A stretch of DNA of 64,000 nt, taken from Burkholderia latens. Lineage in GTDB: Bacteria > Pseudomonadota > Gammaproteobacteria > Burkholderiales > Burkholderiaceae. A program made the position numbers and the translations under genes. The notes under the pieces are model-generated. The model did no database searches. It saw only the letters and a program-made list of their open reading frames with translations, and was not told the DNA's origin. Below, in pieces: positions 37,401 to 40,867 of this stretch (the first letter of the stretch is position 1; every line of letters begins with the position of its first letter). Location of the stretch: contig NZ_CP013438.1 in NCBI RefSeq assembly GCF_001718795.1, positions 310,001 to 374,000 on the forward strand, written 5' to 3'.

Positions 37401-37910
37401 ATGATCACGCTTCGCCCGATGACCGAAGACGACTTCCTCCGCTTCTGGCCCACGTACCGCGCGATCGTCGCCGCGCAGGAGACCTACGCATTCGATCCCG
37501 CGCCGACGCGCGAAGCGGCGCGCGCGATCTGGCTCGACGCGCCGCTCTGCACGTGGGTGGCGGAAGAGGACGGCGTGCTGCTCGGTTCGTACTTTCTGAA
37601 GGCGAACGCGGCCGGGCCCGGCAATCACGTGTGCAATTGCGGCTATATGGTCGACGCAGCCGCGCGCGGCAAGGGCGTCGCCCGGTTGATGTGCGAGCAC
37701 TCGCAGCAGGTCGCGCGCGAGCGCGGCTTCCTCGCGATGCAGTTCAACTCGGTGGTCGCGACGAACGAGGTGGCGGTTGCGCTGTGGCGGAAGCTCGGCT
37801 TCGACGTCGTCGGCCGTTTGCCGCGCGCGTATCGTCACGCGCGGCTCGGCTTCGTCGATTGCCTCGTGATGTACAAGTGGCTCGGCGACGCGGCAGCTGC
37901 CGACGCCTGA
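37401..37910 (+). CDS. GNAT-family N-acetyltransferase
   Basis: 169 aa. ITLRPMTEDDFLRFWPTYRAIV is a standard GNAT N-terminus; the acetyl-CoA loop is DAAARGKGVARLMCEHSQ (motif A) and ATNEVAVALWRKLGFDVVGRLPRA the C-terminal part. AAGGA precedes ATG 37401. Substrate unknown. It is convergent with the M29-like gene, 8 bp between stops, and could modify that system's product, but there is no direct evidence. Confidence 0.87.
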   Translation: MITLRPMTEDDFLRFWPTYRAIVAAQETYAFDPAPTREAARAIWLDAPLCTWVAEEDGVLLGSYFLKANAAGPGNHVCNCGYMVDAAARGKGVARLMCEHSQQVARERGFLAMQFNSVVATNEVAVALWRKLGFDVVGRLPRAYRHARLGFVDCLVMYKWLGDAAAADA

Positions 37911-37918
37911 TTCCCGGG

Positions 37919-38872
37919 TCAGACGGCGAACGCGCCGTCGAACACGATCCGCTCGTCGAACGCGAGCGTGCCGCGCGCGAAGATCAAATCGAGGTGGTGG
38001 CTGCCGTTCGCGCCGCCGCCGAGACCGAGGTGCAGGCCCGGGTGGCGTTCCTCGAAGCCGGCGTTGCGGCCGTACAGCCTGCGGATCCCGACGTTCGTGC
38101 CGATGCCGAATTCCTCTATGCGCCGGTGGTTTTCATGCCGGTCGAGATAGGTCGCGAAGTCGCGCCGGAAGCCGGGGTCGTCGCTGTCGAAATCGACGAT
38201 CAGGCTGTCCTCGACATGCAGCGTCGCGAGCCGCTCTGCGACACGGTACTTGATCGCGAACGGCACGGTGCCGAGAAACGTGCCGCTGAACACGATCGAG
38301 CCGCGCAAATCGGTGACGTGCGTCGCAATCTCGCCGGGCACAACGTCCAGATTGCCCATCCCGTCGACGCTCGTCCATTTCTGGTCCGGCGCGAGCGAGC
38401 CGGTCAGCGTGTTGCCGGCTTCGTCGATGAAGTGAAGCTGCGACGCTCGCGCCGCGGCTTCGATCAGGCGGCCGTTGCGCGCGGCGATGTCGTCGAGCGA
38501 TTCGGCGAACGCCTCGTCGAGATGCGGGCCGTAATCCTTGAACAGCACGGATTTGTTCCAGTGCTCGACAATCGCCGGCCGGATTGCGGCAAGGAACGGC
38601 GGCCCGCTCGGCGACGGCGTCGGCAGGCAAGACGAGTCGTACAGCAGCACGAAGAGATCCGCGTGCGCGAGCGCGGCGGCGATGTCGGCGGGCGGCGTGC
38701 TTTCCAGGCAGAGGGTGATCGCGTCGAGCGAGTCGGGCAGCGCGGAAAACGCGCGCAGTGCGGTGTCGCGGTTGCGGGTGTCGTAGCCGACCAGCAGCTT
38801 GCCCGTCTCGCCGCGTGCGAGCTTGTCGCGCAGCGCCGGATGGAAGCCCAGCGCGCGGTGCAGGTTCAGCAT
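37919..38872 (-). CDS. M29 aminopeptidase-T-fold metalloenzyme
   Basis: 317 aa. The C-terminal half carries the M29 metal-ligand pattern: PGE (E181) after the NLDVV strand, EFGIGTN (E254), HLGLGGG (H281) and HHLD (H293, D295). Known members are dinuclear aminopeptidases or the iron dioxygenase NicX, so cleavage or ring oxidation are both possible. It is shorter than typical aminopeptidase T (about 410 aa). ATG 38872 is chosen; in-frame extension upstream runs through the hairpin and is low-complexity. It directly follows the 40-aa peptide gene. Confidence 0.72.
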   Translation of the reverse strand: MLNLHRALGFHPALRDKLARGETGKLLVGYDTRNRDTALRAFSALPDSLDAITLCLESTPPADIAAALAHADLFVLLYDSSCLPTPSPSGPPFLAAIRPAIVEHWNKSVLFKDYGPHLDEAFAESLDDIAARNGRLIEAAARASQLHFIDEAGNTLTGSLAPDQKWTSVDGMGNLDVVPGEIATHVTDLRGSIVFSGTFLGTVPFAIKYRVAERLATLHVEDSLIVDFDSDDPGFRRDFATYLDRHENHRRIEEFGIGTNVGIRRLYGRNAGFEERHPGLHLGLGGGANGSHHLDLIFARGTLAFDERIVFDGAFAV

Positions 38873-38889
38873 GCGTGTCTCCGGAAGCG

Positions 38890-38913
38890 GCGGAAGGGCC
38901 GCAGCCCTTCCGC
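38890..38913 (-). terminator. Intercistronic 10-bp hairpin between the peptide and M29-like genes
   Basis: Arms GCGGAAGGGC and GCCCTTCCGC with a 4-nt loop, 17 bp after the peptide stop and 17 bp before the enzyme start. It lacks a U-run, so it would act as a partial attenuator or RNA stabiliser that keeps the peptide mRNA in excess, a common device after RiPP precursor genes. Confidence 0.6.
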
Positions 38914-38930
38914 GGGAACGGGCTGGCCGC

Positions 38931-39053
38931 TCAGACCGGCCAGAGCGCGGTGCCGAACGGCACCACGGCATCCTCGACCATCATGTCGACGGCCTCGGGG
39001 TGCGTGTCTTCCTTCATCCAGTCAAGCAATTCGATCTGCTGGGTTTCCTGCAT
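38931..39053 (-). CDS. 40-aa peptide, possible RiPP precursor
   Basis: ATG 39053 follows ACAGGAG by a good distance. The peptide starts MQETQQIELLDWMKEDTHPE, an acidic amphipathic stretch like a leader, and ends VVPFGTALWPV, a hydrophobic tail with aromatic residues and Pro-Val terminus. Composition is unlike high-GC shadow frames. It is first in a two-gene unit with the M29-like enzyme, has a hairpin behind it and two AT-rich palindromes in front. I recognise no family. A plain small regulatory protein is the alternative. Confidence 0.65.
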   Translation of the reverse strand: MQETQQIELLDWMKEDTHPEAVDMMVEDAVVPFGTALWPV

Positions 39054-39093
39054 GTCAATTCTCCTGTGATGAACAGCGATTCAACATGAAAGC

Positions 39094-39139
39094 GCGATAA
39101 AAAATTTATCGCCGCTCATTCGGTATTTTTTGAATACCG
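39094..39139. promoter_or_regulatory. Two adjacent AT-rich palindromes before the 40-aa peptide gene
   Basis: GCGATAAA-N3-TTTATCGC (39094-39112) and CGGTATT-N5-AATACCG (39121-39139), 41-86 bp upstream of the peptide start. A TTCAAA/GATAAA pair with about 18-bp spacing on the leftward strand overlaps them, so binding here would control the promoter. Confidence 0.65.
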
Positions 39140-39320
39140 GACGAGTGGCATCGATATTAGTCTGATGAATTTGCGAATGCAATGGACCGCAAGATTTTTA
39201 GCCGATGCGTGCTAAACACGCGGATTTTGGGGGCAATTTTGCGACGACAATGGATAAGCGAAGCGATATCGGCGCTGTTTTTTATCGAATATAGGGGACA
39301 TGTCGACTTAATCGATGCTT

Positions 39321-39335
39321 GGATTTTTTAAATCC
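39321..39335. promoter_or_regulatory. Short palindrome in the AT-rich region
   Basis: GGATTT-N3-AAATCC, about 280 bp before the MFS start and 270 bp from the peptide start. Possible third binding site or promoter element. Confidence 0.4.
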
Positions 39336-39616
39336 GAATCCAATTGCGCCGATCGTTTCGGTTTACGTGATGCGCCGGACGATGGACGCGCGGTTGCACC
39401 ACGCGGCACGCGCGACCGATTGCTGGCGACCGCGTGGCCGGCGGCGCGCGGCGGCATTTGAAAGTATCATCGGCCGATCGGCGCGCCGGCCCCGCAAACG
39501 CGATCGGCGCCCGCCAACAATCGGCCTGCGTATCGACGCCGCCGCGCGCTGTCGCGCCGCGCCGCCGCCGCCGGCCCGAGGCCGCACCGGCCGAGAACCA
39601 CGATGGAGACACCGCG

Positions 39617-40867
39617 ATGCGCGCAGCGCCGCAACCGGAGCACGCCGGCCGAGCACGGCCGCACACCGGCGCCACCGAACCCGACCGCATGGCCGCGTGG
39701 CGGCTCGCGATCTGCCTGTCGCTCGGCAGCGCGATCGCGCTCGGCCTCGCGCGCTTCGCGTATGCGCTGCTCTTGCCGCCGATGAAGGCCGATCTCGGCT
39801 GGACGTTCGCGCAGGCCGGCGCGCTGAACACGGCCAACGCGGCCGGCTACCTGATCGGCGCGGTCGTTTTCCCGCTCCTGTCGCGCCGCTGGCGCAGCGG
39901 CACGCTGCTCGCGTGCGGCTGCGTGCTGACAGCGCTGCTGATGGGCGCATGCGGGTTCACGTCCGCGATGAACGCGCTGCTGGTCGAGCGGCTCGCGACC
40001 GGTGTCGGCAGCGCGCTGATCTTCATCAGTGGCGGCGTGCTGGCCGCGCGGCTCGCGTCCGCGTCGCCGCGCGATGCGGGGCTGCTGCTCGGGCTCTATT
40101 ACGGCGGCACGGGCTGGGGCATCGTCGCGTCGTCGCTGCTCGTGCCGGCAACGCTCGCGCATCGCGCGCACGGCTGGCAGCCAGCGTGGTTCGCGCTCGC
40201 GTTCGCATGCGTGCTGTTTTCGGCGGTGGCCGTGTCGGCCGCGCGCAGGATCGAGCGCGCACATGCGGCGCCGGCCGCACCGCGCGACGGCGCCGCGCCG
40301 GCGGCGAGCGCGAGTCCCGCTCGCTTCGCGCTCGCGCTCGGCGGTTATGGCCTGTTCGGCGTCGGCTATATCGGCTACATGACGTTCATCGTCGCGCTGC
40401 TGCGCGGCGCGGGGATGAGCGCAACGGTCGTGGCCGCTTTCTACGTGATGCTGGGCGTCGCGACCGTCGTATCGGCGCGCTTGTGGTCGGGGTTGCTCGA
40501 CCGGATGCGCGGCGGCCAGGCGCTCGCTGTGCTGAACGCGCTGCTCGGCGTCGCGACACTGATGCCGGCGCTGTTCGTGCATCCGGCGGCCGCGTTCGCG
40601 TCGGGCGTGCTGTTCGGTGCGACGTTTCTTTCGGCAGTCGCGGCGACGACGGCATTCGTGCGCCACAACCTGCCGCCGCAGGGTTGGGCGAAGGGAATCA
40701 GCGCGTTCACGACGATCTTCGCGTTCGGACAGATCGCCGGGCCGGTCGCGATCGGCTGGGTGTCGGACAGCGCGGGGCTTGCACGCGGGCTTGTGTATTC
40801 GGCGCTGACGCTGTTCGCGGGCGCCGCTCTTGCAGCCGGACAGCGTGCGTTGCGCGCACCGGCGTAG
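39617..40867 (+). CDS. MFS transporter, YbfB/YjiJ family
   Basis: 416 aa with about 12 hydrophobic segments. Family pattern at the start: LAICLSLGSAIALGLARFAYALLLPPMKADLGWTFAQAGALNTANAAGYLIGA. A GGAG lies before ATG 39617. An open frame upstream is arginine-rich and not part of the protein. Substrates of this family are poorly known; export is likely. It is divergent from the peptide/M29-like unit and may export its product, an inference from position only. Confidence 0.85.
   Translation: MRAAPQPEHAGRARPHTGATEPDRMAAWRLAICLSLGSAIALGLARFAYALLLPPMKADLGWTFAQAGALNTANAAGYLIGAVVFPLLSRRWRSGTLLACGCVLTALLMGACGFTSAMNALLVERLATGVGSALIFISGGVLAARLASASPRDAGLLLGLYYGGTGWGIVASSLLVPATLAHRAHGWQPAWFALAFACVLFSAVAVSAARRIERAHAAPAAPRDGAAPAASASPARFALALGGYGLFGVGYIGYMTFIVALLRGAGMSATVVAAFYVMLGVATVVSARLWSGLLDRMRGGQALAVLNALLGVATLMPALFVHPAAAFASGVLFGATFLSAVAATTAFVRHNLPPQGWAKGISAFTTIFAFGQIAGPVAIGWVSDSAGLARGLVYSALTLFAGAALAAGQRALRAPA

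Follow-up and report, generated by a model that had tools for sequence, protein, structure and literature searches.

A short peptide gene recurrently paired with an M29-fold metalloprotein gene in Burkholderia latens and other bacteria: a candidate minimal RiPP-like system

In a stretch of 64,000 nucleotides from Burkholderia latens (contig NZ_CP013438.1, positions 310,001 to 374,000; hereafter the window, numbered from its first letter), a gene for a 40-aa peptide stands on the minus strand directly ahead of a gene for a 317-aa metalloprotein of the M29 fold (hereafter the enzyme), and this peptide-enzyme pair recurs in Burkholderia, Pseudomonas-like, Xenorhabdus and Piscirickettsia genomes. 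We put at roughly two in three the probability that the two genes form a minimal system of one precursor and one enzyme, similar to those that make ribosomally synthesized and post-translationally modified peptides (RiPPs), with the 40-aa peptide as the substrate.

A conserved 40-codon frame beside the enzyme gene

The peptide gene occupies positions 38931–39053 of the minus strand, has a ribosome-binding site AGGAG (39061–39065) before its ATG, and is followed after 58 bases by the 317-codon enzyme gene (37919–38872). An earlier reading made from the letters of the window alone (the sequence-only reading) had proposed that this 40-codon gene with its ribosome site encodes a precursor paired with an M29-fold metalloprotein, and had named a frame unconserved beside homologous enzymes as the observation that would count against the proposal. 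The comparison went the other way: the 40-aa peptide lies ahead of the enzyme gene in 28/28 full-length Burkholderia loci (L002–L029), its start 180–181 bases and its end 57–58 bases before the enzyme, and the linkage extends to several lineages. Variable sites among 29 sequences of the frame numbered 7, 5 and 21 of 41 each at codon positions 1, 2 and 3, and the ratio of nonsynonymous to synonymous variation (pN/pS) was 0.15; judged by this pattern of substitution, the 40-aa frame is under purifying selection.

When a profile built from six peptides was run against 5.8 billion proteins, 56 of 60 candidates gave matches with E-values no higher than 10, all but two of them below 1e-10. Named sources include Burkholderia, Paraburkholderia, Pseudomonas, Vibrio aquimaris, Piscirickettsia litoralis, Chromobacterium and Photorhabdus, of which the Vibrio, Chromobacterium and Photorhabdus sequences are known as peptides alone and stood outside the linkage comparison. 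Pfam and NCBIfam scans of the peptide gave no family. Many of the homologues carry no protein name; of the rest, most are annotated as ‘hypothetical protein’, and three (P0123, P0161 and P0165) carry the UniRef name ‘Mercuric reductase’, apparently wrongly.

Linkage of the two genes across genera

The linkage was quantified in the genus of genome G288, whose peptides resemble named Pseudomonas peptides, which suggests the label ‘Pseudomonas’ (hereafter Pseudomonas-like). The enzyme was found in 72 of its 199 genomes at E ≤ 1e-10, and the DNA pattern of the peptide tail V-P-F-G-T-A-x-W in 69, once each. All 69 genomes with the motif belong to the 72 with the enzyme, and in each the motif lies on the same contig and strand, 73–108 bases before the enzyme match, while the exact motif was found in none of the 127 enzyme-free genomes of the genus (Fisher P = 1.7e-50, relatedness ignored). 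The remaining three enzyme genomes (G547, G575 and G577) carry the tail DAVVAFGTAMWPF, a one-residue variant.

The enzyme is mostly single-copy. A single match was obtained in 70 of the 72 Pseudomonas-like genomes, and an additional weak, partial one in the other two; among 28 Burkholderia genomes, with matches counted at E ≤ 1e-30, 25 have one, two have a second and one has none. The second enzyme of those two Burkholderia genomes is distant, lies on another contig and has its own precursor. These second-type enzymes (L116 and L117), together with that of the Enterobacterales-like locus L152, pair with the tails SAVIPFATALWA; peptide and enzyme subtypes thus match. The enzyme P0041 of Burkholderia dolosa (51% identity) and the B. 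dolosa peptide P0167, with the tail AVVQFGTAMWPL, were compared as sequences outside the genomic linkage analysis, and they suggest that a third subtype may exist.

In the Xenorhabdus-like genus of genome G298, where 9 of 30 genomes have the enzyme, the gene order changes. The peptide lies upstream of the enzyme in three loci (L146, L148 and L150) and downstream, on the same strand and roughly 200–300 nt away, in five (L142–L145 and L147); in the ninth locus the contig ends at the enzyme. The true tails in these genomes read PVGTAMW. The peptide thus comes first in the window and in the other lineages compared, but not in five of eight Xenorhabdus-like loci, where it cannot be an upstream leader of the enzyme gene. 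The linkage survives the change of gene order, and in this the peptide behaves like a substrate. A looser tail pattern run over the same 30 genomes was discarded: with 12 places in 9 genomes against 10 in a backward control it was too loose, and it missed the true tails. Only one of its places adjoined an enzyme (G1010), and the loci fetched by it (L130–L141) were left out of further analysis.

In wider samples the enzyme is rare. It was found in 8 of 398 genomes of a phylum-wide sample, seven of them strong matches, in 3 of 119 of a family sample, in 3 of 369 of a class sample (one a partial gene), and in 1 of 200 and 1 of 247 of two order samples, both times only in the sample centre itself; these samples overlap, each includes its own centre, and cut-offs were 1e-10 or 1e-30. 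Outside the 28 Burkholderia loci, the peptide is also held by L001, from a B. cenocepacia record, and by the Burkholderia-like L034 (G326). Some of loci L071–L086 repeat genomes of L036–L070, and L032, L033, L087–L115, L118 and L122–L129 duplicate, in full or in shortened form, loci that enter the counts under other numbers. In L031, a fragment of a contig, the enzyme match is partial and no precursor was seen; L035, L121 and L149 are one genome, in which the contig ends at the enzyme and no precursor was seen; L040 is a distant M29 match; and the peptide of L059 has AIV for AVV. As a separate observation, L154 and L156 contain only the C-terminal half of the enzyme and no precursor with the motif; in L156 (G1153:C9, 11 kb, from a 1.7 Mb genome) the metal-ligand half forms a 148-codon frame, with no tail-motif precursor within the 11 kb.

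A nearly invariant tail and a more variable leader

The ends of the peptides were compared as 54 distinct sequences of 30 residues aligned on the last Trp, with P0176 (cut) and P0177 (doubtful start) excluded. Thr at −3 from this Trp is invariant (54/54) and −1 is always Leu or Met (54/54); Ala −9 and Val −8 each occur in 53 and Ala −2 in 52, and the Phe of the tail is replaced by Val in three. The last Trp is followed by one or two residues, mostly Pro and one variable residue. The leader varies more than the tail, except for Trp at −26 (53/54) and Met at −13 (51/54).

In the peptide of the window, residues 1–28 contain nine acidic residues and one lysine and are followed by the conserved tail AVVPFGTALW and a final PV. 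An AlphaFold model places helices at residues 9–14 and 19–28 and leaves the remainder to the C terminus unstructured, with a mean predicted local distance difference test score (pLDDT) of only 71.6. The locus has the features of a RiPP system, namely a short peptide with a putative recognition part and core, told apart by their conservation, and a linked enzyme gene whose product would modify the peptide.

An M29-fold metalloprotein with intact candidate ligands

The predicted structure of the enzyme (pLDDT 94.7) shares its fold with the crocagin proteins 6zsv/6zsu and with the M29 aminopeptidases AmpT (2ayi), PepS (4icr) and AmpS (1zjc) in structure comparison. The M29 ligand set named by the sequence-only reading, E181, E254, H281, H293 and D295, proved invariant in 25/25 aligned enzymes, as did E274 and E275. 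Six candidate ligands (E181, E254, E275, H281, H293 and D295) match the E, E, E, H, H, D set of CgnB by order and spacing, compared without superposition, and on this alignment the candidate metal ligands are intact in the enzyme.

Many relatives of the enzyme carry, in source annotation, the label PF26231 or that of a crocagin CgnE/B domain, and it is on these labels that we call the enzyme CgnB/E-type. The claim that the pair has no named family is not supported, as Adam et al. 2023 (PMC10070186) describe this family. The enzyme itself, scanned with Pfam and NCBIfam, gave no family, the PF26231 profile being outside the Pfam library scanned, and sequence searches of the PDB gave no match. 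The closest enzyme among named genomes is that of Burkholderia latens, at 96% identity. Public names of the relatives are ‘hypothetical protein’ or, for many (P0002 and others), ‘leucyl aminopeptidase’, apparently wrongly.

Stem-loops and a promoter-like block around the peptide gene

A stem-loop with a 10-bp stem and a 4-base loop lies directly 3′ of the peptide gene on the minus strand (38890–38913). This intergenic hairpin had been reported by the sequence-only reading and is present, with an energy that is unexceptional for so GC-rich DNA (z = −1.18; 23 of 200 shuffles were as good). Across 70 distinct peptide-enzyme intergenic regions, scanned by a simple finder without shuffle control, stems of at least nine pairs were found in 59 and shorter ones or none in 11. 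A stem-loop of ten or more pairs also follows the peptide in all five Xenorhabdus-like loci in which the peptide is downstream, which indicates that the stem-loop goes with the peptide gene. T-rich stretches come after the hairpin in some loci (L078, L079, L116 and L120), and in L116 the hairpin after the peptide is terminator-like.

Upstream of the peptide gene, a promoter-like block TTGCAT-N17-TAATAT (39154–39182, minus strand) is conserved in thirteen aligned Burkholderia as TTGC.T / TAA.AT, with 17 bases between the hexamers and 10 of 12 hexamer positions invariant; a consensus scan gave no sigma-70 match, and the designation draws on conservation only. Between this block and the peptide start codon sit two AT-rich palindromes of the minus strand, which form a first 5′ stem-loop with a longer outer stem (39115–39145; 94.0% of cells paired, 5 of 12 pairs changed on both sides) and a second one (39094–39112; 88.4% of cells paired, 3 of 7 pairs changed on both sides). 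Taken together on 21 sequences, 92% of cells pair and 8 of 19 pairs are changed on both sides; none of 500 shuffles reached the observed level, and slid versions gave 34–51%. Because the structure was derived from the window itself and compared across related members of one genus, which inflates the counts, these values are support and not proof.

The palindromes had been taken for AT-rich operators. Their existence stands, and their role as protein operators was rejected: the sequences drift but mostly preserve their pairing, and they lie 3′ of a promoter-like block, so that RNA stem-loops fit better. By this covariation the two palindromes look more like RNA hairpins, and an Rfam search over 38700–39700 gave no match at E up to 1.

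Neighbouring genes

The window also contains, as had been noted, a major facilitator superfamily (MFS) gene divergent from the pair (MFS_4; 39617–40867, plus strand), and a GNAT gene convergent with it (37401–37910, plus strand). By tblastn the MFS gene lies near the locus, at varying distance, in 23 of 28 Burkholderia loci (L002–L029), one of them partial, and in none of L030, L071–L086, L116, L117 and L142–L150. Being near the locus only in part of Burkholderia, it was rejected as a part of the system.

The comparison of neighbours took in 8 of the 28 Burkholderia loci, 16 Pseudomonas-like and 9 Xenorhabdus-like ones, and loci of Paraburkholderia and of the second type. Apart from the enzyme and frames that overlap with it, nothing was common to all these groups, and no shared accessory gene was found. 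Pseudomonas-like loci have an amino-acid permease on one side in 12 of 16 and, on the other side, an S4-domain gene, which we take to be rluB-like, in 10 of 16. A conserved third gene was also sought and rejected: amino-acid permeases (in Pseudomonas-like and Xenorhabdus-like loci), response regulators and LysR genes form clusters that link some of the groups, yet they stand at differing places, and we read all three as common families. Pfam scans of ten neighbours (nine from relatives, one of these a 60-aa piece, and the GNAT of the window) found transporters, LysR, GNATs, S4 and DUF417, with one protein matching no family. No oxygenase was among these ten, though neither a search with a CgnC query nor a whole-genome search was made, and no radical-SAM gene was among the neighbours that were scanned, which were only some of those present.

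Most Burkholderia loci have a GNAT gene convergent with the pair, and Xenorhabdus-like loci have another one nearby (L143:7526–8029), with no clustering of the two by BLAST; their presence may be a coincidence. In L029 (B. anthina LMG 20980), the pair is followed by two frames of 164 and 201 aa without a Pfam match and, beyond these, by genes for a response regulator and a hybrid histidine kinase.

What the pair may do

In the reading that we favour, the acidic, partly helical part of the peptide, with its near-invariant Trp12 and Met25, would be a leader bound by the metalloprotein, and the C-terminal tail would be turned into one fixed small product. If modification occurs, metal-assisted dehydration of Thr followed by attack of Trp is our tentative choice of chemistry, made by analogy with crocagin and held at less than even odds: once the enzyme has dehydrated Thr35, a ring spanning T-A-[L/M]-W would form through the Trp38 indole, and the one or two residues after Trp would be trimmed. 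The invariant Thr carries its own beta-hydroxyl, which would make an oxygenase unnecessary and would explain that no CgnC-like partner was seen beside the pair.

Rather doubtful, in its full form, is the proposal that the pair represents a new single-enzyme RiPP class, in which the M29-fold protein alone cyclises T-A-[L/M]-W via Thr dehydration and the Trp indole and the product is a signal or a cofactor-like compound; with a core nearly fixed from Burkholderia to Piscirickettsia, this product would be one shared molecule and not an antibiotic family. If this proposal is true, the oxygenase step of crocagin is replaced by a natural beta-hydroxyl, a ribosomal peptide system is reduced to a precursor and one enzyme in over a third of the sampled Pseudomonas-like genomes (72/199), and the pair would allow the action of the CgnB fold in isolation to be tested directly.

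The cleavage or oxidation of the peptide proposed by the sequence-only reading may also occur, and two of the rivals correspond to these. Among the alternatives, the one that survives best is an unmodified peptide that accompanies the enzyme as a small stable subunit, as an inhibitor or in a chaperone-like role, while the enzyme acts on another substrate; we consider it improbable. The strict 1:1 linkage and the single exact tail match per Pseudomonas-like genome are as compatible with a subunit as with a substrate, the genera compared have no accessory gene in common, and the leader positions W12 and M25 are conserved too; however, the most conserved part is the tail predicted to be unstructured, with its invariant Thr and its one or two variable end residues, and the labelled family of the enzyme includes proteins shown in the crocagin study to bind a RiPP precursor (PMC10070186).

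There is likewise only a small chance that the enzyme is a true M29-type peptidase that merely trims the peptide and releases it as an unmodified signal or nutrient-like peptide. The fold and the candidate two-metal site are those of M29 aminopeptidases; against this, Adam et al. (PMC10070186) report no aminopeptidase activity for CgnB and CgnE, and, unlike the solved M29 aminopeptidases listed (397–413 residues), the enzyme is about 80–96 residues shorter and is recurrently paired with one peptide gene.

We give very little weight to a NicX-like iron oxygenase that oxidises the Trp or Phe of the tail; we know of no peptide partner of NicX. This 2,5-dihydroxypyridine dioxygenase (7cn3, 7cup) shows 16% identity and has, by its PDB titles, a small pyridine as substrate, whereas, in order and spacing, the arrangement of the six candidate ligands is like that of the two-zinc site in CgnB (the comparison covered CgnB, with NicX geometry outside it) and the tail Phe can be Val. 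Least credible of all is a regulatory leader peptide acting by nascent-chain arrest or attenuation, with the hairpin controlling the enzyme gene: the short frame, the hairpin, the gene order and the T-rich stretches of some loci would fit, but Trp is separated from the stop by one codon in some peptides and by two in others, and the five loci with a downstream peptide, where the hairpin follows the peptide, rule it out as the shared function and leave it possible only as an added function in other lineages.

Comparison with crocagin and other known systems

Among the papers listed we found no description of the peptide-enzyme pair, or of the shared small molecule to which its nearly fixed core points, in a search that left out most subscription journals and the supplementary precursor list of the crocagin paper. 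The nearest known system is that of crocagin, which antiSMASH 7 names as a cluster type (PMC10320115). According to Adam et al. 2023 (PMC10070186), who founded the CgnB/CgnE protein family (PF26231), CgnB binds the crocagin precursor, CgnC hydroxylates Cbeta of a Tyr, and CgnB is proposed to use its metal ions to eliminate the resulting hydroxyl and thereby permit the attack by Trp; CgnB without CgnC gave no observable product from CgnA. The study also states that single-copy CgnB/E homologues keep the metal site and that they were mined for precursors (PMC10070186).

Like crocagin (CgnA with CgnB, CgnC and CgnE), the pair described here combines a short precursor, which has a Trp close to its C terminus, with an adjacent protein that shares the fold and the source label of the family and has its ligand positions intact as in CgnB. 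Unlike crocagin, which has two enzyme copies close together, one with a broken metal site, it has a single copy at the locus, and no CgnC-like gene was seen beside it in neighbour scans, which used no CgnC query. The core is T-A-[L/M]-W plus one or two residues in place of I-Y-W, with no Tyr-Trp end among the 54 compared, and the leader is acidic where that of crocagin is basic.

PqqA-type cofactor precursors are short peptides whose core is nearly fixed over a wide phylogenetic distance. The present peptide resembles them in its nearly fixed core and differs in being linked to a different enzyme family; a core so constant over wide distance suggests one fixed product rather than a diversifying antibiotic. 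The pair looks like a simplified relative of the machinery that modifies the crocagin peptide.
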